Positions 1,454 to 51,131 of a DNA stretch of 64,000 bases are shown here, piece after piece. The translations under genes and the position numbers were made by a program. Every line of letters begins with the position of its first letter. Positions within the stretch are counted from its first letter, which is position 1. Source of the stretch: Halarchaeum nitratireducens (GTDB taxonomy: Archaea; Halobacteriota; Halobacteria; Halobacteriales; Halobacteriaceae); contig NZ_BMOQ01000004.1 of the NCBI RefSeq assembly GCF_014647155.1, positions 186,001 through 250,000 on the forward strand. The letters are read 5' to 3'. The notes below the pieces were generated by a model that had not been told where the DNA came from, searched no databases, and saw only the letters and a list, made by a program, of their open reading frames with translations.

Positions 1454-2359
1454 ATGCCGTGGCCGAGCACCCTCCCGGAGTTCGTCGCCCGCGTCGGGGC
1501 CCTAATGCACAACTTCGGACCCGTCGTCGCGGTGCTCGCCATCGTCGCCGGCTGGTACCTCGGTCGCGTCCTCACCGGCGTCCTCGGCCGCCGCGTCGCC
1601 CGCCGCTTCATGCGTCCGTCCGTGACGCGTACCGTCCTGCGGCTCATCCGCACCGGCGTGCTCGGGGTGGGCGTGCTCGTCGCCATCTGGTCGCTCGGGC
1701 TCGGCCTCGGGAACCTCGTCGTCTCCGTTACGGTCTTCTCGGCGGTGCTCGGCCTCGTGCTCGCGCCGATCGTCGGCAGCGTCATCAACGGCGTCTTCGT
1801 CCTCGCCGATCAGCCCTACGAGATCGGCGACATGATCGAGTTCACCGACACGGGCCAGCGCGGCTTCGTCGAGGACATCACGCTGCGCTACACGAAGGTG
1901 TTCACTCTCGACAACACCTTCCTCGTGATGCCCAATGGCGAGATGCGCGAGATGAACATCGTCAACTACTCCGCGGAGGACGAACGCACGCGGTGTTCGC
2001 TGACCGTCCAAGTCACCTACGAGAGCGATCTCGCGACCGCCCGCTCGGCCATCGAACGCGCCGCCGCCTCCTGCGAGGAGGTCATCGAGGGAGGCCCCGA
2101 CATCCGGATCGGAAGCGCGCGCTACCCGGCGAAACCGCGGTGCTACATCGACGAGTACGCCGACAGCGGCGTGACCCTCACGCTGCGCTACTGGGCGAAA
2201 CAGCCCTACCGACTCGGGGCCGTGCGTTCGACCGTCCAGACGAAGATCTGGGACGAGCTGCAGGCACGCGACGACGTCACGTTCGCGTACCCGCACGTCC
2301 AGCACGTCTTCGACGAGGAGAGCGGCGAGGCGAGAGTGGCGCTCAGACGGGAACAGTGA
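1454..2359 (+). CDS. MscS family mechanosensitive ion channel
   Basis: A 301-residue membrane protein. Three hydrophobic segments lie in residues about 15-35, 55-80 and 85-115. The last is the pore-lining type helix rich in Gly, Ala and Val. It leads into the MscS beta domain with ADQPYEIGDMIEF, a Phe-Val-Glu-Asp-Ile turn and MPNGEM, then the alpha/beta C-terminal domain. The family releases solutes on hypo-osmotic shock. The start chosen is the ATG at 1454, because earlier in-frame codons fall inside the regulator gene on the other strand. The 3' end overlaps the convergent UspA gene by 17 bp. Confidence 0.88.
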   Translation: MPWPSTLPEFVARVGALMHNFGPVVAVLAIVAGWYLGRVLTGVLGRRVARRFMRPSVTRTVLRLIRTGVLGVGVLVAIWSLGLGLGNLVVSVTVFSAVLGLVLAPIVGSVINGVFVLADQPYEIGDMIEFTDTGQRGFVEDITLRYTKVFTLDNTFLVMPNGEMREMNIVNYSAEDERTRCSLTVQVTYESDLATARSAIERAAASCEEVIEGGPDIRIGSARYPAKPRCYIDEYADSGVTLTLRYWAKQPYRLGAVRSTVQTKIWDELQARDDVTFAYPHVQHVFDEESGEARVALRREQ

Positions 2360-2744
2360 CGAGCTCGCAGTCGAGCTGTTCGCGGAGGTAGGACTCGACG
2401 TCGGGTTCGCCGAGGAGCGAGCGGAGGGCCTTACGCCAGCGCGAGACCTGCGCGCTCCCGATCACGACGACGTCGGCGTCCTCCGCGGCGACTTCGTCGA
2501 GGATCGTCTCCTCGACCATGAAGGAGCGACGGACGACGTACCGCGTTCGCTGGACGGTTCCGAAGGCGCGCTCGACGGCGCGTTTGAGATCGGTCCACGT
2601 GACGCGGCGATCGTTCTGGTAGAGATCGACGTGGAGGACGGTGAGGCTGGCGTCGCGTTCCGCTGCGAGGTCGATGGCGGCCCGGAGCGTCGCGCGCGAG
2701 TGTTCGGTGAGCGGGTAACGGACCGGCACGACGACGGTTGTCAT
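2343..2744 (-). CDS. Universal stress protein (UspA family)
   Basis: A 133-residue protein with one Usp fold. It starts with a beta strand (MTTVVVPVRYPLTEHS), has the TVLHVD strand near residue 40 and the VVVIGSA strand near residue 97, and ends with ELVTVPV. The ATP-binding G-x2-G-x9-G-S/T motif is poorly conserved (GSAQVSRWRKALRSLLGEP), so it may be a non-ATP-binding member. The start is the ATG at 2744, since a longer in-frame extension runs into the next gene. Its stop lies inside the convergent MscS gene. Confidence 0.8.
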   Translation of the reverse strand: MTTVVVPVRYPLTEHSRATLRAAIDLAAERDASLTVLHVDLYQNDRRVTWTDLKRAVERAFGTVQRTRYVVRRSFMVEETILDEVAAEDADVVVIGSAQVSRWRKALRSLLGEPDVESYLREQLDCELVTVPV

Positions 2745-2828: not shown

Positions 2829-3065
2829 ATGATCGAGGTGGAGACCGACGACGGAACGTTCTACGCCGCGGAGGACGAGGGCGAGCGCGGCGACGAGGGT
2901 GCGTTCCTCGTCGTCTACCGGACGCCCGACCAGGAGACGCGGTACGGGTGGTACTGCACGAACTGCGAGTCGATCGACAACGCGATGGACGCGATGGGCA
3001 CTATCGTCTGCAACGTCTGCGGGAACTATCGGAAGCCGGACGAGTGGGACGCCGCGCACGAATAG
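2829..3065 (+). CDS. Small zinc-ribbon protein (DUF5816-like)
   Basis: A 78-residue acidic protein. Two knuckles, CTNC and CNVC, are separated by 19 residues and form a likely single zinc ribbon in the C-terminal half, after a beta-rich N-terminus (MIEVETDDGTFYAAEDE). It resembles a haloarchaea-specific family that I remember as DUF5816, with unknown function. It is transcribed away from the UspA gene, and the two starts are 84 bp apart. The call of a real gene rests on the cysteine pairs, the clean start and acidic haloarchaeal composition. Confidence 0.75.
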   Translation: MIEVETDDGTFYAAEDEGERGDEGAFLVVYRTPDQETRYGWYCTNCESIDNAMDAMGTIVCNVCGNYRKPDEWDAAHE

Positions 3066-3199: not shown

Positions 3200-3415
3200 C
3201 GACCGCGCCGCGTTCTGAGCGTGACAGCCCGCGCGGCGGTTTCGTGGCCGGGCTCGGCGGCTCCGCGACGCGTGGTGTGATAGTGGTGCGCGCCACCGCG
3301 AACGCCTGAGCCGTCTGGACGGTGCCGCATCGACGCTGAGGCGGGGAAAACGTCCCAACGACCCGGACACAAGAATTACCGTTTCTGAGAGAACACTTCT
3401 ACGCGGGTGACTTCC

Positions 3416-4789
3416 ATGACCGGATCACTATCGGACGCGATCGACGAGGCGGGGAGCGCGCTGGAGCTGGTGCGGGGCAACTACCTCTACCCGGAGGACC
3501 TGCTGGACCTCGGGGGCGACATCCCCTCGGAGTTCTCGAACTGGCGCGAGGAACAGCGGGCGTGGACGGAGGGCGCGACGCTGATGGACCAGTCCCAGCA
3601 CATGGTCGACCTGATCCTGGGTGGGCCCGACGCGATCGACCTCCTCGCGGACCTCGGGATCAACGACTTCGAGCGCTTCGAGCCGGGGAAGGCGAAGCAG
3701 TTCGTCGCGTGCAACCCCGAGGGCTACCTCATCAGCGACGCGATCCTGTTCTACCTCGACGAGGGGGAGCTCGATCTCGTCGGGACGCCGCCGGCGGCGA
3801 ACTGGGTCGAGTACCACGCCGAGACGGGCGAGTACGACGTGACGGCCGAACGCGAGGAGAACGCGCTGCGACGCGACGGGCCGCCACGGCGCTTCCGCTA
3901 TCAGGTACAGGGACCGAACGCCCTCGACATCATGCGGGAGGCGATCGACGGGTCGCTCCCCGACGTGGCCTTCTTCAACTTCGATACGGTGACGATCGCG
4001 GGACACGACGTCGAGGCGCTGCGCCACGGGATGCTGAACGAGGCGGGCCTCGAACTCTTCGGCCCGTGGGAGTACCGCGAGGACGTCCGCGAGGCGATCG
4101 TGGAGGCCGGCGAGGGGTACGGGCTCGTCCCCAGCGGGATGAAGGCCTACTTCACAAACAACGTCAACGGCTGGGTGCCCGCGCCGCTCCCCGCCGTCTA
4201 CGGCGAGAGCATGTCGGAGTATCGGGAGTGGCTCGACGACCGGGGGTGGGAGGCCGGTTTCTCCGTCGGCGGGAGCCTCCACGCCGACGACGTGAGCGAC
4301 TACTACCTGAACCCCGTCGAGGTCGGCTACGGTTCCTTCGTCGACTTCGACCACGACTTCGTCGGGAAGGAGGCGGTACGCGAGATGACGGAGCGCGAAC
4401 AGCGCACGAAGGTCTCGCTGATCTGGGACCGGGACGACGTCGTCGACGCCGCGGCGGGGCTCTTCGAGGACCCGACGACGAAGTCGATGGACTTCCCGCG
4501 CCCGCAGTACGCGCTGTCGATGTACGACCGCGTGGAGGTGGACGGGGAGACCGTCGGCGTCTCGAAGTGGCCGTGCTACCGCGATCACGTCCAAGAGATG
4601 ATGTCGCTCGGGATCGTCGATCCGGGGCTCGCGGACCCCGGGACTGAGGTCACGGTGGTCTGGGGTGAGGCCGACTCGCCGAAGGCGAACGTCGAACCCC
4701 ACGAGGAGGTCGAGATCGACGCCGTCGTCGAGTCCATCCCCTATCACGACGAGGACAAGCGCAAGTCTATCGATTACGGCGGCCAGTGA
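3416..4789 (+). CDS. LigM/DesA-like folate-dependent O-demethylase (GcvT fold)
   Basis: A 457-residue GcvT-superfamily protein. Its N-terminal signature (EFSNWREEQRAW, then DQSQHMVDL, then KAKQFVACNPEGY) and its length match LigM and DesA, tetrahydrofolate-dependent demethylases of vanillate, 3-O-methylgallate and syringate, much better than the shorter GcvT of glycine cleavage or DmdA. NYLYP near residue 22 corresponds to the LigM region holding a catalytic tyrosine. The C-terminal domain (residues about 340-457) is the usual beta-barrel. The substrate is therefore probably a methoxylated aromatic, but this is inferred. The gene stands alone, with no aromatic ring-cleavage genes nearby. The start could be GTG 3407; ATG 3416 gives the family-like N-terminus. 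Confidence 0.72.
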   Translation: MTGSLSDAIDEAGSALELVRGNYLYPEDLLDLGGDIPSEFSNWREEQRAWTEGATLMDQSQHMVDLILGGPDAIDLLADLGINDFERFEPGKAKQFVACNPEGYLISDAILFYLDEGELDLVGTPPAANWVEYHAETGEYDVTAEREENALRRDGPPRRFRYQVQGPNALDIMREAIDGSLPDVAFFNFDTVTIAGHDVEALRHGMLNEAGLELFGPWEYREDVREAIVEAGEGYGLVPSGMKAYFTNNVNGWVPAPLPAVYGESMSEYREWLDDRGWEAGFSVGGSLHADDVSDYYLNPVEVGYGSFVDFDHDFVGKEAVREMTEREQRTKVSLIWDRDDVVDAAAGLFEDPTTKSMDFPRPQYALSMYDRVEVDGETVGVSKWPCYRDHVQEMMSLGIVDPGLADPGTEVTVVWGEADSPKANVEPHEEVEIDAVVESIPYHDEDKRKSIDYGGQ

Positions 4790-4909
4790 GGTCGCGACGG
4801 CGACAACCGACGGGCGGTGACGCGGGTGCGGGCGGACGCGGGGACGCGCCGGTCGGTGCCGCCGGCGGTAGCCTTCACCTTTAGGGTCGGCTCGCGCGAA
4901 CCACGTGGC

Positions 4910-6346
4910 GTGACCATCACCGCAGCACGGATGGCGGCCGTGGACCGGAACGCAGCCGCCCTCGACGTCTCGACGAAGCAGCTGATGGAGTCGAGCGGGC
5001 ACGCGCTCGCCCGCGCGGTCCGCGACGTCGCCGCCCCCGGCGATTCCGTGACCGTCCTCGCGGGCCGCGGGAACAACGGCGGGGACGCCTTCGTCGCCGC
5101 GCGCTTCCTCGACGGCGATGTCGACGTCTCGGTCCGCCTCCTCGGACGCCCCGAGACGATCACGACCGAGATCGCCCGCGAGAACTGGGCGGCCCTCCAG
5201 TCCGCGGAGATCGACGCCGAGCGCGTCCTCGACTCGAAGTCGCTCGCACTCGGCGATCCGGATGTCGTCCTCGACGGCGTGCTCGGGACGGGCGTGACGG
5301 GCGCGCCGCGCGAACCCGAACGCTCGGCCATCGTTGCGGCCAACGAGGCGGACGCGACGGTGGTCTCGGTCGACGTCCCGTCCGGGATGGACGCGGACAC
5401 GGGCGAGGTGGCGGACGTCGCCGTCGAGGCGGATCGGGTCGTCACCTTCCACGACCTGAAGCCGGGTCTCGACGGCCGCGACGACGTCACCGTCGCGGAC
5501 ATCGGTATCCCGGAGGCGGCGGAGACGTTCGTCGGCCCGGGCGACCTCCTGTCGCTCGAACGCGACCCGCAGGCGCACAAGGGGGACTTCGGGCGCGTGA
5601 TGGTGATCGGCGGGGGCCCCTACACGGGCGCGCCGGCGCTCTGCGCGCAGGCGGCGCTGCGCGCGGGTGCGGACCTCGCGTACGTCGCCTGTCCGGACGC
5701 CATCGCCGACACGGTGCAGGGGTACGCCGAGGACCTCATCGTCGAGTCCTACGAGGGCGAACGCCTCCGTCCCCGCGACGTCGACGTCCTGCTCGCGGCC
5801 GCCGCCGACCGCGATGTCGTCGTCATCGGCCCCGGATTGGGCGGTGCGGACGACACGCTCGACGCGGTCCGCGACTTCCTCGCGGGCTACGAGGGGACGG
5901 CCGTCGTCGACGCGGACGCTCTCCAAGTCGTGCCCGACGTCGACACGGACGCGACCCTCGTCTGTACGCCTCATCAGGGCGAGCTCGCGACGATGGGCGG
6001 CCCCCGCGTCGACGACTGGGAGGAGCGCGCCGCGCTCGTCGCCGAGTTCGCGGCCGAACTCGACGTCACGCTCCTCGTGAAGGGCGCGTACGACGTGATC
6101 TCGGACGGCGACGTCACGCGCGCGAACCGCACCGGGAACCCCGGCATGACCGTCGGCGGGACGGGCGACGTCCTCGCGGGAATCACGGGCGCGATGGCGT
6201 CCACGCGAGCGCCCGTTCAGGCCGCGGCGATCGCGGCGTACGCCAACGGGAGCGCGGGCGACGCGGTCGTCGACGAGCGAGGATACGGCCTGCTCGCCTC
6301 CGACCTTCTCGGCGAGATCCCGCCGGCACTGTGGGGGGAGCGATGA
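4910..6346 (+). CDS. nnr: Bifunctional NAD(P)H-hydrate epimerase / ADP-dependent dehydratase
   Basis: A 478-residue fusion that repairs hydrated NADH and NADPH. Residues about 1-210 are the YjeF_N epimerase domain, with GRGNNGGDAFVAAR near residue 52 and VDVPSGMDADTG near 155. Residues about 220-475 are the ribokinase-like dehydratase domain, with CTPHQGE and, near the end, the diagnostic GGTGDVLAG. The start is GTG 4910, which gives the canonical MTITAARMAAVDRNA; the frame is open upstream but carries no family sequence. The stop overlaps the moaC start as ATGA, indicating translational coupling. Confidence 0.92.
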   Translation: MTITAARMAAVDRNAAALDVSTKQLMESSGHALARAVRDVAAPGDSVTVLAGRGNNGGDAFVAARFLDGDVDVSVRLLGRPETITTEIARENWAALQSAEIDAERVLDSKSLALGDPDVVLDGVLGTGVTGAPREPERSAIVAANEADATVVSVDVPSGMDADTGEVADVAVEADRVVTFHDLKPGLDGRDDVTVADIGIPEAAETFVGPGDLLSLERDPQAHKGDFGRVMVIGGGPYTGAPALCAQAALRAGADLAYVACPDAIADTVQGYAEDLIVESYEGERLRPRDVDVLLAAAADRDVVVIGPGLGGADDTLDAVRDFLAGYEGTAVVDADALQVVPDVDTDATLVCTPHQGELATMGGPRVDDWEERAALVAEFAAELDVTLLVKGAYDVISDGDVTRANRTGNPGMTVGGTGDVLAGITGAMASTRAPVQAAAIAAYANGSAGDAVVDERGYGLLASDLLGEIPPALWGER

Positions 6347-6870
6347 GCGACGACGCCGGACGTGACGTCGAGGCCGACGCCGACGGACCCGAACCCGACG
6401 AGTTAACGCACACGACCGAGTCGGGCGACGTCCAGATGGTGGACGTCGGCGGAAAGCCGGACACGGCACGTCGGGCGGTCGCGCGCGGCGAAATCCGACT
6501 GGGGGCGTCGACGATCGCGGCGATCCGCGGCGACGAAATCGGGAAAGGGGACGTGCTCGCCACAGCGCGCGTCGGCGCGATCCAGGCCGTCAAACACACG
6601 TGGGAGACCATCCCGATGTGTCACCAGATCCCGATCACGAACGTCGAGACGACGTTCGACGTGCGGGACGAGCGCGTCGTCCTCACCGTCGCCGTCGAGA
6701 CGACCGGGAAGACGGGCTGCGAGATGGAGGCCTTGGAGGGCGTGACGACCGGTCTGAACGTCGTCTGGGACATGGTGAAGGCCGCCGAAAAGGACGACAG
6801 CGGTCGGTATCCCGGGACCGCCGTCGAGGGAGTCGAAGTCGTCGAGAAGACGAAGCGGCCGATCGAGTAA
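6343..6870 (+). CDS. moaC: Cyclic pyranopterin monophosphate synthase MoaC
   Basis: A 175-residue protein of molybdenum cofactor biosynthesis. It converts the MoaA product (3',8-cyclo-GTP) to cPMP. Diagnostic motifs are MVDVGGKPDTARRA near residue 34, KHTWETIPMCHQIPI near 84, KTGCEMEALEGV near 125 and the C-terminal DMVKAAEK. About 25 acidic residues precede the conserved domain, a usual haloarchaeal extension. ATG 6343 overlaps the nnr stop by 4 bp. Other molybdopterin genes are not present in this window. Confidence 0.95.
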   Translation: MSDDAGRDVEADADGPEPDELTHTTESGDVQMVDVGGKPDTARRAVARGEIRLGASTIAAIRGDEIGKGDVLATARVGAIQAVKHTWETIPMCHQIPITNVETTFDVRDERVVLTVAVETTGKTGCEMEALEGVTTGLNVVWDMVKAAEKDDSGRYPGTAVEGVEVVEKTKRPIE

Positions 6871-47140: not shown

Positions 47141-48631
47141 ATGTCGGACACTCACCCCACTCGGACGGTCGGCGCACTCCCCGACGCGGCGTCGGAATCG
47201 ACCCGTGCCCCCGTGTGGCTCACCCGACTCGTGTGGCTGCTGTGGGCCGCGAGCCTCGGCGTCCTCGGGGTGCACGCGCTCACCGGCGCCACGTGGGCCG
47301 TCCCCGGCGTCGTCGCCGTCGACGGCCTCACCGTCGTCATGTGGGCCGCCGTCACGTTCTTCAGCGGCATCGTTCACAGCTACTCGCGGCGCTACATGGC
47401 CGGCAGCGAGCGCCTCCGTTCGTTCTTCGCGCGCATCTCCGCGTTCACGCTCGTCGTGATGGTGCTCGTCGCCGCCGCGAACACCGCGCTCTTCGCCCTC
47501 GCGTGGCTCGCCATGGGACTGCTCATGGCCGACCTCGTCGGCTACGCCCGCGGCTGGCCGCAGGCGCGCGCCGCCGCCTCGCTCTCCCGCAGGTACTTCC
47601 TCGCCAGTAGCGCGCTCGTCGGCGTCGCCGCCGCGACCCTCTGGACGACGACCGGCGCGTCCACGTTCTCGGGCGTCGCCGCCGTCGCCGACTCGCTCCC
47701 CACCACCGTGTGGCTCGTCGTCGCCGGGAGCCTGTTGCTCGCCGCGATGATCCAGTCGGCGCTCGTCCCCTTCCACGGGTGGCTGCTCTCGTCGATGACG
47801 GCACCCACGCCCGCGTCCGCGCTCATGCACGCCGGCTTCGTCAACGCCGGCGGCATCCTCCTCGTCCGCTTCGCCCCCGTCGTCACCGTCGAGGCGCGCT
47901 TCATGCTCCTGATCGTCGCCGTCGGTGCCGCGAGCGCGCTCGTCGGTAAACTCCTCCGCACCGTTCAGACGGACGTCAAGGGCCGCCTCGGGTGCTCGAC
48001 GACCGGCCAGATGAGCTTCATGCTCATGCAGGCCGGCCTCGGCTTCTTCGCCGCCGCGATCACCCACCTCATCCTCCACGGTTTCTACAAGGCCTACGAG
48101 TTCCTCTCGAACGGGAGCGACGTCTCGCGCACGACCCCCGGCCGCGGGCACGGCGAGACGCCGTCGCTCACCGCCGTCGGTGCCCTGGCGACCGGCGTCA
48201 CCGCCGTCGCGGGCGGGGCGGTCTTCGCCCGCCTCACCGGCGAGGGCCTCCACGCCGACAGCGGCCTCCTCCTCGCCGGCCTCGTCGTGTTGACCACGCT
48301 TCACGCCGCCCGGCAGGCGATCGGCCACGCCGGCGTCTCGCCCGCCGTCCGCTACGGTGCGGTCGCCCTCGTCTTCCTCCCCGCGATCGCCGTCTACGGC
48401 CTCGTCTACGCCGCCATCGGCGACCTGATGGCCGGCTCGGTGATCGCGGCCGCCCCGACCGACCTGACCGCCGTCCACGCCGCCGTCGCGCTCGCGTTCG
48501 CCGCGATCTACCTCGCTATCGAGACCGGCGTCTACCGCCGCAGCACGCGGCTCTACGTCGCGCTCCGCACCGTCGCGCGGCCGGACGGCCGGACCGTCCT
48601 GACGAACACGGAGGCCTACGATGAGTACTGA
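47141..48631 (+). CDS. dabB: DabB, NuoL-like membrane subunit of inorganic carbon transporter
   Basis: A 496-residue membrane protein of the proton-conducting NADH dehydrogenase subunit family with about 13 helices. Motifs are FFSGIVHSYSRRYMAG near residue 76, ALVPFHGWLLSSMTAPTPASALMHAG near 205 (PFHGWL, the hallmark of NuoL-type antiporters) and LGCSTTGQMSFMLMQAGLG near 285. No other Nuo subunits are present, and the next gene is dabA, so it is DabB rather than complex I. It is thought to supply the cation gradient driving CO2 hydration by DabA. Confidence 0.88.
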   Translation: MSDTHPTRTVGALPDAASESTRAPVWLTRLVWLLWAASLGVLGVHALTGATWAVPGVVAVDGLTVVMWAAVTFFSGIVHSYSRRYMAGSERLRSFFARISAFTLVVMVLVAAANTALFALAWLAMGLLMADLVGYARGWPQARAAASLSRRYFLASSALVGVAAATLWTTTGASTFSGVAAVADSLPTTVWLVVAGSLLLAAMIQSALVPFHGWLLSSMTAPTPASALMHAGFVNAGGILLVRFAPVVTVEARFMLLIVAVGAASALVGKLLRTVQTDVKGRLGCSTTGQMSFMLMQAGLGFFAAAITHLILHGFYKAYEFLSNGSDVSRTTPGRGHGETPSLTAVGALATGVTAVAGGAVFARLTGEGLHADSGLLLAGLVVLTTLHAARQAIGHAGVSPAVRYGAVALVFLPAIAVYGLVYAAIGDLMAGSVIAAAPTDLTAVHAAVALAFAAIYLAIETGVYRRSTRLYVALRTVARPDGRTVLTNTEAYDEY

Positions 48632-51131
48632 TACGACCCACGACACCGACGACGTCCGCGAGCGCATCAGCGACGCCGCCGAGACCGTCGGCACGAACTG
48701 GCCGCTCCACTCGTTCGTGACCGCGAACCCCCTCGCCGGCTACGAGGACCGCCCCTTCCACGAGGCCGTCGAGCGCGCGACCACCCTGCGCGGGGGCCGG
48801 GCCTACCCGGACCCGGACACGTTCCGCGCCGCGTGGGAGCGCGGCGACATCGACCCGTCGGTCCTCCGCGCCGAACTTGACGCGCACGGCTACTCGCTCG
48901 ACCCAGAGGCGGCACTCGACCGGCTGGCCGACGCGGCGGGAGACGACGCGCGCACCGTCCGCGACGAGGCGACGGCGCGCGTCGATCACGCGCTCGCGTC
49001 GTGGCTCGCGGCCTTCTGCGACGAGGGCGAGGCGTCGTGGCCGATGCCGAACCGCGAGGCCGGCTTCTACGACGCCTTCCGCGCCGTCGCGCGCCACGAC
49101 TCGACGATCCCGGACGCGGCCTCGCTCGCCGACGCGCCCGACGATCCCGCCGCCGCCATCGCCGACGTCCTCGCCGACCACCCGGGCGAGCGTCTGCCGG
49201 CGGTCTTCGAGGCGCATCTGAACGCGCTCCCCGGCTGGACCGGCCTGCTCAAGTACCGCGCCGAGCGCGGCGACGAGTGGCAGGACGCCTACCCGATCAC
49301 GCTCGTCGGCTATCTCGCCGCTCGCCTCCTGCTCGCCGAGCGCTTCGACGCGCCGATCGATCCGCTCGCCGACGCGGGCGACGAGACCGACGCGAACGGC
49401 GCCGGCGCGATCGACGGGAGCGACGACGAGACCGACACCGCCGACGACGGCGTGCCGCTCGCAGAAGTCTGGCTGCGCGCGTGGGAGCAGTCCTACCGCG
49501 GCGACGTCGTCGACGCCGTCGCGGACGCGAGCGCGGCCCGCGCGGACCCCGCGGACGACGGGAGCCCCGACGGCCGCGCCGACGCCCAGCTCGTCTTCTG
49601 TATCGACACGCGCTCGGAGGTCTTCCGCCGCCACCTCGAGGCCACCGGCGACTACGAGACGCACGGCTACGCTGGCTTCTTCGGCGTCCCGATGCGCTAC
49701 GAGGGGTACGACGAGGCCAGCGCGGACGCCTGCCCGCCGATCGTCGACGCCGAACACCACGTCCACGAGCGCCCCGACGGCGCACGCGCCGACGAGCACG
49801 CGATCTACGATCGCTGGACGGGCCGCCTCCGCGCGGCCGAGTCCGTGCTGAAGGCCGTGAAGTCCAACGCCGCGACGGCGTTCAGCTTCGTCGAGAGCGC
49901 GGGCAGCGCCTACGGGGCCGCGCTCGCCGCGCGCACGCTCGCACCCGAGCGCGTCCACGACCTCCGTGACGCCCTCGACGATCGCCTCCCGAGCGTCCCC
50001 GACTTCTGCACGCCGAGCGTCGAACGCGAGGGCGAGCGGGTCGGCGACCTCCCCGTCGGCATGACGCACGAGGAGCGCGTCGCGTACGCCGCCGCGGCCT
50101 TCGAGACGATGGAGTGGGACGAGTTCGCACGCCTCGTCGTCTTCACCGGCCACGCGAGCGAGACGACGAACAACCCCTTCGAGGCGAGCCTCGATTGTGG
50201 CGCGTGCGCCGGCAATCCCGGCGGGCCGAACGCCCGCGTGCTCGCCGCGATCTGCAACGACGACGCCGTCCGCGACGCGCTGGGCGAACGCGGGATCGAC
50301 GTCCCCGACGACACCGTCTTCCTCGCCGCCGAGCACAACACGACGACGGACGAGGTGACGCTCTACGACGGCGCCGTCCCCGAGAGCCACGAGCGCGACG
50401 TCGAGCGCCTCCGCAGCGACCTCGATCGCGCGCGCTCCGGCGCGGCCGCCGAACGGGCGGAATCCATGGGCGCCGATCCCGAACGCGCCGTCCGCGACGC
50501 CGAGCGCCGCGCCGCCGACTGGGCGGAGACGCGCCCCGAGTGGGGGCTCGCCGGGAACGCCGCCTTCGTGATCGGGCCGCGCGACCTCACCGCCGACCTC
50601 GATCTCGGCGGGCGCGCCTTCCTTCACTCCTACGACTGGACGCAGGACCGCGAGGGCGACGCGCTCGACGCGATCTTCGCCGGCCCGGTCGTCGTCACGC
50701 AGTGGATCAACGCCCAGTACTACTGCGCGACCGTCGACAACGCGGCTTACGGGAGCGGGTCGAAGATCACGCACAACCCCGTCGGAAACGTCGGCGTCTA
50801 TCAGGGCAACGGCGGCGACCTCGTCACCGGCCTCCCGCTCCAGTCGCTCATGGCCGCCGACGACGACCCCCACCACCAGCCCCTCCGCCTCTCTCTCGTC
50901 GTCCACGCTCCCGTCGAACGCGTCCGCGGCGTCCTCGCCCAGCACGAACACGTCCGCACGCTCTGCGAGAACGGCTGGCTCTCGCTCACCGTCGTCGATC
51001 CGACGCGCGGCCACGACGCGTACGCCTACGACGGAGGGTTCACCCTCGACGAACCCGAGGACTCGACGGCGGAGCGCGAGCCCGAACGCGAACCCGACCC
51101 GGAGGCGCGCGTCGCCGTCGCGGACGACTAG
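48621..51131 (+). CDS. dabA: DabA, carbonic-anhydrase-like subunit of inorganic carbon transporter
   Basis: An 836-residue protein of the UPF0753/DUF2309 family. The N-terminus NWPLHSFVTANPLAGYED is family-typical. The predicted zinc site is Cys327 and Asp329 (VFCIDTRSE), His511 (FTGHASETTNNPFEA) and Cys526 (LDCGACAGNPG). The 15-residue spacing of the last two equals that in characterised DabA. NAQYYCATVDNAAYGSGSK is near the C-terminus. It overlaps dabB by 11 bp and its stop overlaps the convergent helicase-nuclease gene by 4 bp. An acidic linker near residues 252-275 is a haloarchaeal insertion. Confidence 0.92.
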   Translation: MSTDTTHDTDDVRERISDAAETVGTNWPLHSFVTANPLAGYEDRPFHEAVERATTLRGGRAYPDPDTFRAAWERGDIDPSVLRAELDAHGYSLDPEAALDRLADAAGDDARTVRDEATARVDHALASWLAAFCDEGEASWPMPNREAGFYDAFRAVARHDSTIPDAASLADAPDDPAAAIADVLADHPGERLPAVFEAHLNALPGWTGLLKYRAERGDEWQDAYPITLVGYLAARLLLAERFDAPIDPLADAGDETDANGAGAIDGSDDETDTADDGVPLAEVWLRAWEQSYRGDVVDAVADASAARADPADDGSPDGRADAQLVFCIDTRSEVFRRHLEATGDYETHGYAGFFGVPMRYEGYDEASADACPPIVDAEHHVHERPDGARADEHAIYDRWTGRLRAAESVLKAVKSNAATAFSFVESAGSAYGAALAARTLAPERVHDLRDALDDRLPSVPDFCTPSVEREGERVGDLPVGMTHEERVAYAAAAFETMEWDEFARLVVFTGHASETTNNPFEASLDCGACAGNPGGPNARVLAAICNDDAVRDALGERGIDVPDDTVFLAAEHNTTTDEVTLYDGAVPESHERDVERLRSDLDRARSGAAAERAESMGADPERAVRDAERRAADWAETRPEWGLAGNAAFVIGPRDLTADLDLGGRAFLHSYDWTQDREGDALDAIFAGPVVVTQWINAQYYCATVDNAAYGSGSKITHNPVGNVGVYQGNGGDLVTGLPLQSLMAADDDPHHQPLRLSLVVHAPVERVRGVLAQHEHVRTLCENGWLSLTVVDPTRGHDAYAYDGGFTLDEPEDSTAEREPEREPDPEARVAVADD

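Follow-up and report, generated by a model that had tools for sequence, protein, structure and literature searches.

A putative folate-dependent O-demethylase of the LigM/DesA family in the haloarchaeon Halarchaeum nitratireducens

The window analysed here is a stretch of 64,000 nucleotides (C4:186001-250000) from the 3.14-Mb genome of Halarchaeum nitratireducens. The gene under study, whose product we call P0001, lies between genes for a universal stress protein (Usp) and a small DUF5816 protein on one side and the Nnr-MoaC pair on the other, with no catabolic cluster around it (Table 1). Both signatures on which the preliminary description was based, EFSNWREEQRAW and KAKQFVACNPEGY, were found in this open reading frame, and the reported length of 457 residues was confirmed. 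In Halarchaeum rubridurum, an orthologue with 91-92% identity has the same neighbours and begins at the equivalent ATG; for this reason, the start at 3416 is preferred over the in-frame GTG at 3407. A long antisense frame (3428-6469, minus strand, 1013 aa) was rejected as a shadow, given that codon usage and homology favour the plus frame. The gene had been described as standing alone, which holds for its immediate surroundings but not for the genome, where a second copy is located elsewhere. In a third Halarchaeum genome and in four genomes from other genera of its family, AcyP precedes Nnr and no demethylase gene lies between them, whereas in the two Halarchaeum genomes that carry P0001 AcyP is found on the opposite side; P0001 thus occupies a rearranged spot. 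Elsewhere in the window (47213-51131), a DabB/DabA-like pair (DabA Pfam match, 866 bits) probably encodes a haloarchaeal inorganic carbon transporter.

Table 1. Features of the P0001 locus; positions are those of the window, and residue equivalences refer to LigM.
Feature	Position	Strand	Evidence
Universal stress protein (Usp), flank, outside the system	2343..2744	-	Pfam PF00582
DUF5816 small protein, flank	2829..3065	+	Pfam PF19133
Predicted LigM/DesA-type THF-dependent O-demethylase gene, P0001, 457 aa	3416..4789	+	Profile, PDB match, tree, fold, residues
GCV_T folate-binding domain, residues 35-245	3518..4150	+	Pfam PF01571, E 7e-35, 120.9 bits, cut-off 25.6
Q59-H62, equivalent to Gln57 and His60	3590..3601	+	Alignment to PDB 5x1i
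T124, at the position of Arg122 (replaced)	3785..3787	+	Alignment
E213, equivalent to Glu215	4052..4054	+	Alignment; present in all 57 haloarchaeal and all 14 bacterial rows
Y245, equivalent to catalytic Tyr247	4148..4150	+	Alignment; invariant
NAD(P)HX epimerase/dehydratase (Nnr), housekeeping flank	4931..6346	+	Pfam PF03853 and PF01256
MoaC, housekeeping flank	6343..6870	+	Pfam PF01967

P0001 is a real gene, as its similarity to known proteins is far above chance: the DesA model of NCBIfam matched with 504.1 bits (E 2.7e-151), and a phmmer search of the PDB returned LigM with an E-value of 1.5e-110, compared with 1e-17 for T-proteins. Among the NCBIfam models, DesA was followed by LigM (431.9 bits), GcvT (78), TMAO demethylase (52), sarcosine oxidase (42) and DmdA (36.6). 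The DesA/LigM match spans the full length of P0001, ahead of every other GcvT-fold family. Nevertheless, the scores fall below the cut-offs of both curated equivalogs, DesA (NF047633, 800 bits) and LigM (NF047885, 580 bits); these profiles place P0001 outside LigM and DesA in the strict sense. It also scores below the cut-offs of the gcvT model (62.2 versus 235.85 bits) and of the DmdA model (410 bits). GCV_T is the sole domain above the Pfam cut-off in the 457 residues, and the fused FAD oxidoreductase domain of sarcosine oxidase and DMGDH was not detected in P0001.

In a tree that included GcvT/DmdA-type rows, the LigM/DesA-like rows formed a single group at 100/99, so that P0001 does not fall inside the GcvT or sarcosine-type proteins. 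In a first tree, P0001 was grouped weakly (89/59) with bacterial LigM/DesA; this was a sampling effect that disappeared once seven more bacterial rows were added. In the final tree, built like the final alignment from 57 haloarchaeal and 14 bacterial rows, P0001 groups with the haloarchaeal proteins (98/98), from which it is set apart by a long branch (0.63), and the haloarchaeal/bacterial split is supported at 100/96. With this bacterial sampling, the haloarchaeal side suggests one or a few old transfers followed by paralogy. A distant relative, L059:8480-9808 (genome G257), lacks the catalytic tyrosine and His60 and was for this reason left out of the final tree; it probably has a different activity.

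The AlphaFold model of P0001, built from 33 relatives, reached a pLDDT of 88.4 and a pTM of 0.90. In a Foldseek search with this model, the top 16 matches were all LigM structures (TM 0.85-0.92, rmsd 2.0-2.5), followed by T-protein (TM 0.65) and DmdA (TM 0.60). The best LigM superpositions (TM 0.90-0.92, rmsd 2.0-2.2) cover about 457 columns, that is, the whole length, including the parts outside the GcvT domain. Profiles, PDB match, tree and predicted fold all agree with the preliminary assignment to the LigM/DesA type rather than to GcvT. Based on these lines of evidence, P0001 is a member of the family of folate-dependent aryl O-demethylases, which in bacteria transfer methyl groups from lignin-derived aromatics to folate, and identities as GcvT, DmdA or a sarcosine/dimethylglycine enzyme are rejected.

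LigM residues are numbered from the alignment to PDB 5x1i as the chain index minus 3, an offset that we inferred. The catalytic tyrosine of LigM is Tyr247, and Arg122 is the residue that holds the aryl carboxylate of the substrate. The equivalents of Tyr247, which P0001 retains, and of Glu215 were each found in 71/71 rows, and that of His60 in all rows reaching the position, across the 57 haloarchaeal and 14 bacterial sequences. In contrast, the Arg122 equivalent is present in 10/14 bacterial rows, including all the bacterial proteins above the curated DesA or LigM cut-offs (L103, L105:2294, L012), and in 0/57 haloarchaeal rows; in P0001, Arg202 is likewise replaced, by Glu. Because the Tyr, His, Gln and Glu residues are conserved and Arg122 and Arg202 are replaced, P0001 is predicted to have kept the chemistry and changed its substrate contacts. 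Neither of the outcomes named beforehand as refuting the preliminary description, placement among GcvT or sarcosine-dehydrogenase-like proteins and loss of the tyrosine, was observed. Given the missed cut-offs and the threonine at the Arg122 position, neither vanillate nor syringate can be presumed to be its substrate. These data give no support for them or for any plant compound in this role, so the possibility of a new methyl donor, raised in the preliminary description, still holds.

The second copy in the genome, at C2:383211-384536, shares 47% identity with P0001. Its neighbours include the C1 and pterin genes FolD, MetF, PurU, MptA and PabA/B/C, together with an IclR regulator, a catechol 2,3-dioxygenase/HpaD-like extradiol dioxygenase, an HpaI-like aldolase, a CoA ligase and a thioesterase. 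In the dioxygenase, His157, His219/220 and Glu271 are spaced like the metal ligands of the extradiol family. MetF of this cluster is the sole MTHFR of the genome; its best PDB match is 7xg9/7xlf (E 1.3e-36), which we believe to be the MTHFR enzyme of SYK-6. All the enzymes needed to convert 5-methyl-THF to formate are encoded in the genome, as is SHMT, another C1 source. The context of this paralogue backs the tie to folate C1 metabolism put forward earlier, and its position among folate and ring-cleavage genes points to a putative, undescribed archaeal use of methoxylated compounds. Another region of the same genome (G000), C6:30000-69999 (L050, L051), is a large, partly duplicated region for betaine, dimethylglycine and sarcosine degradation that contains BCCT transporters, a Rieske protein, two DMGDH-like proteins, PurU, a FolD-like fragment and SHMT. 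A DmdA-like protein at L051:15566-16924 (241 bits, cut-off 410) may be a haloarchaeal demethylase of DMSP or betaine.

Searching other haloarchaea, as the preliminary description had advised, identified the LigM/DesA-like family in 22 of the 392 sampled Halobacteria genomes and 11 of the 86 genera, with at least four copies in Halobellus among the matches listed. MTHFR is present in 21/22 genomes with the family versus 81/370 without it (Fisher p 1.7e-12, a value overstated since the genomes are related). Neighbourhood clustering revealed recurring partner genes: CoA ligase, IclR, thioesterase, MetF, 2-hydroxyacid dehydrogenase and a liv-type ABC transporter, as well as extradiol dioxygenase, HpaI-like aldolase, FolD, PurU and PabA/B. 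A similar gene set, plus FolP, is carried on annotated plasmids of Halobellus limi, Halosolutus and Halostagnicola, and a comparable one was found on plasmids of Agrobacterium and Rhizobium and likewise in Novosphingobium and Rhodococcus. Two Halobellus subfamilies have other fixed surroundings. One (L061, L083, L085-L087, L091, L093) lies between a DUF7110 gene and the gene of a conserved protein without a Pfam match that reads as ACT-domain-like. The other (L069-L071, L073, L075-L078) is accompanied by genes that, from our reading of the sequences, encode a polyamine-type ABC transporter, an HAD-type phosphatase and an FGGY-type kinase.

Family, fold, catalytic residue and co-occurrence with a C1 route are established at the level of sequence. 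On this basis, we consider it likely that P0001 is a cytoplasmic THF-dependent O-demethylase that would hand methyl-THF to MetF, acting on a substrate that is not by default vanillate or syringate because the LigM Arg122 is missing. The GcvT-type domain would bind THF, with the methoxylated aromatic docked beside it; Y245, as general acid, would donate a proton to the ether oxygen, and the methyl group would pass to N5 of THF, presumably yielding a phenol and 5-methyl-THF. MetF of the C2 cluster would then oxidise 5-methyl-THF to methylene-THF, a direction that we infer for Halarchaeum and that has been described for the MTHFR of SYK-6 (PMC12585457). FolD and PurU could convert methylene-THF through formyl-THF to formate, or the C1 units could be used in biosynthesis, and the extradiol dioxygenase would cleave the phenolic product. 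The orphan copy P0001 would presumably feed the same MetF route as its C2 paralogue.

A serious, although tentative, alternative keeps this chemistry and changes the donor: the haloarchaeal branch would demethylate a methoxy compound that lacks a carboxylate, is bound to CoA or is not aromatic, such as a halophile metabolite, and lignin aromatics would be the wrong class. The loss of Arg122 throughout the haloarchaeal rows and the missed LigM/DesA cut-offs argue for it, as do the frequent CoA ligase and thioesterase neighbours and the several haloarchaeal subfamilies in unrelated contexts, such as that of the polyamine-type transporter and phosphatase. P0001 itself, outside any catabolic cluster and on a long branch, may have shifted to a different methyl donor. 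Nevertheless, the catechol-type extradiol dioxygenase and HpaI-like aldolase beside the paralogue point to aromatics for at least one subfamily, and a carboxylate could be bound by other residues. It is improbable that P0001 is an orphan relic, inactive or moonlighting, left among housekeeping genes: its solitary position between Usp/DUF5816 and Nnr/MoaC and the empty site in the five genomes with AcyP before Nnr would fit such a relic, but the frame is intact in two species and all the tested catalytic residues are conserved. A DmdA-like DMSP demethylase acting on a sulfonium compound would suit the saline habitat, and DmdA is likewise a GcvT-fold THF methyltransferase; this identity is very unlikely given the score of P0001, a DmdA fold match ranking under that of T-protein, and the better candidate in L051. 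Least probable of all, and refuted at the family level by E-values, tree and fold, is a divergent GcvT or sarcosine- or dimethylglycine-type aminomethyltransferase, which would account for the common GCV_T domain and fit the betaine-degradation genes but would sit in a genome without a P-protein or an above-cut-off H-protein.

The glycine cleavage P-protein is present in 370/392 Halobacteria genomes. When the three Halarchaeum genomes were compared (G000, G222, G237), neither a P-protein nor an above-cut-off H-protein was found in the two that have demethylases and MetF, whereas both proteins are present in the third, which lacks demethylase and MetF. A GcvT-like match at C1:195202 is not GcvT, as it carries the YgfZ motif KGCYVGQE. 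A class-wide link between the demethylase and glycine cleavage loss is unsupported, the P-protein being kept in 20/22 carrier genomes; in Halarchaeum, the absence of glycine cleavage alongside demethylase and MetF is probably one event. The Halarchaeum pattern resembles that of SYK-6, in which LigM and an MTHFR replace the glycine cleavage system (PMC12585457), although SHMT is encoded in the genome studied here. A broader scenario, which we regard as speculative and rather unlikely in full, is that folate-dependent demethylases have radiated separately in haloarchaea, with an altered pocket that may accept CoA-bound or carboxylate-free methoxy substrates, and that in one Halarchaeum lineage the methyl groups passing through MetF took over C1 supply after the loss of glycine cleavage.

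In the literature searched, archaeal O-demethylation is corrinoid-dependent or relies on a Bathyarchaeial methyltransferase (PMC8630106, PMC8359953, PMC10989822). A search of the literature outside subscription journals returned no report joining LigM and haloarchaea, or folate-type O-demethylation in Archaea, and the eLignin entries consulted list five haloarchaea growing on aromatics, with O-demethylation named there for none. The pathway is invisible in databases because its products are annotated as 'aminomethyltransferase family protein' or 'hypothetical protein'. If our reading is correct, Archaea would possess an aerobic, folate-based demethylation of methoxylated compounds, where the literature search gave just corrinoid-dependent or other anaerobic methyltransferase systems. 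Halophiles would be tied to the cycling of methoxy compounds, from plants or other sources, that enter salterns, and the haloarchaeal branch would offer natural LigM-pocket variants and salt-adapted enzymes.

Compared with LigM, the vanillate/3-O-methylgallate O-demethylase of Sphingobium SYK-6 (PDB 5x1i, 5tl4), P0001 shares the full-length fold (TM 0.90-0.92), 40% identity and Tyr247, His60, Gln57 and Glu215 (as Y245, H62, Q59 and E213), but has Thr and Glu in place of Arg122 and Arg202, scores 432 bits against the cut-off of 580 and has no adjoining LigAB. DesA, the syringate O-demethylase, is its best curated model (504 bits, under the cut-off of 800), whereas the plasmid-borne DesA of N. 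pentaromativorans reaches 850. The SYK-6 LigM-S6MTHFR module (PMC12585457) resembles the Halarchaeum genome in combining a demethylase with an MTHFR homologue, the P-protein being undetected in the latter; the Halarchaeum case differs in being archaeal, in having MetF next to the paralogue rather than P0001, and in the presence of SHMT. The DesA-like aminomethyltransferases of thermophilic MAGs (PMC9296663), for which a methyl-transferring catalytic tyrosine has been stated, share the DesA-like branch, the conserved tyrosine and a putative function, but are bacterial. Finally, the corrinoid-dependent aryl demethoxylation of Methermicoccus and Archaeoglobus (PMC8630106, PMC8359953) and the methyltransferase of Bathyarchaeia (PMC10989822) likewise represent use of methoxylated aromatics by Archaea, but these anaerobic systems differ from P0001 in their protein families and methyl carrier.
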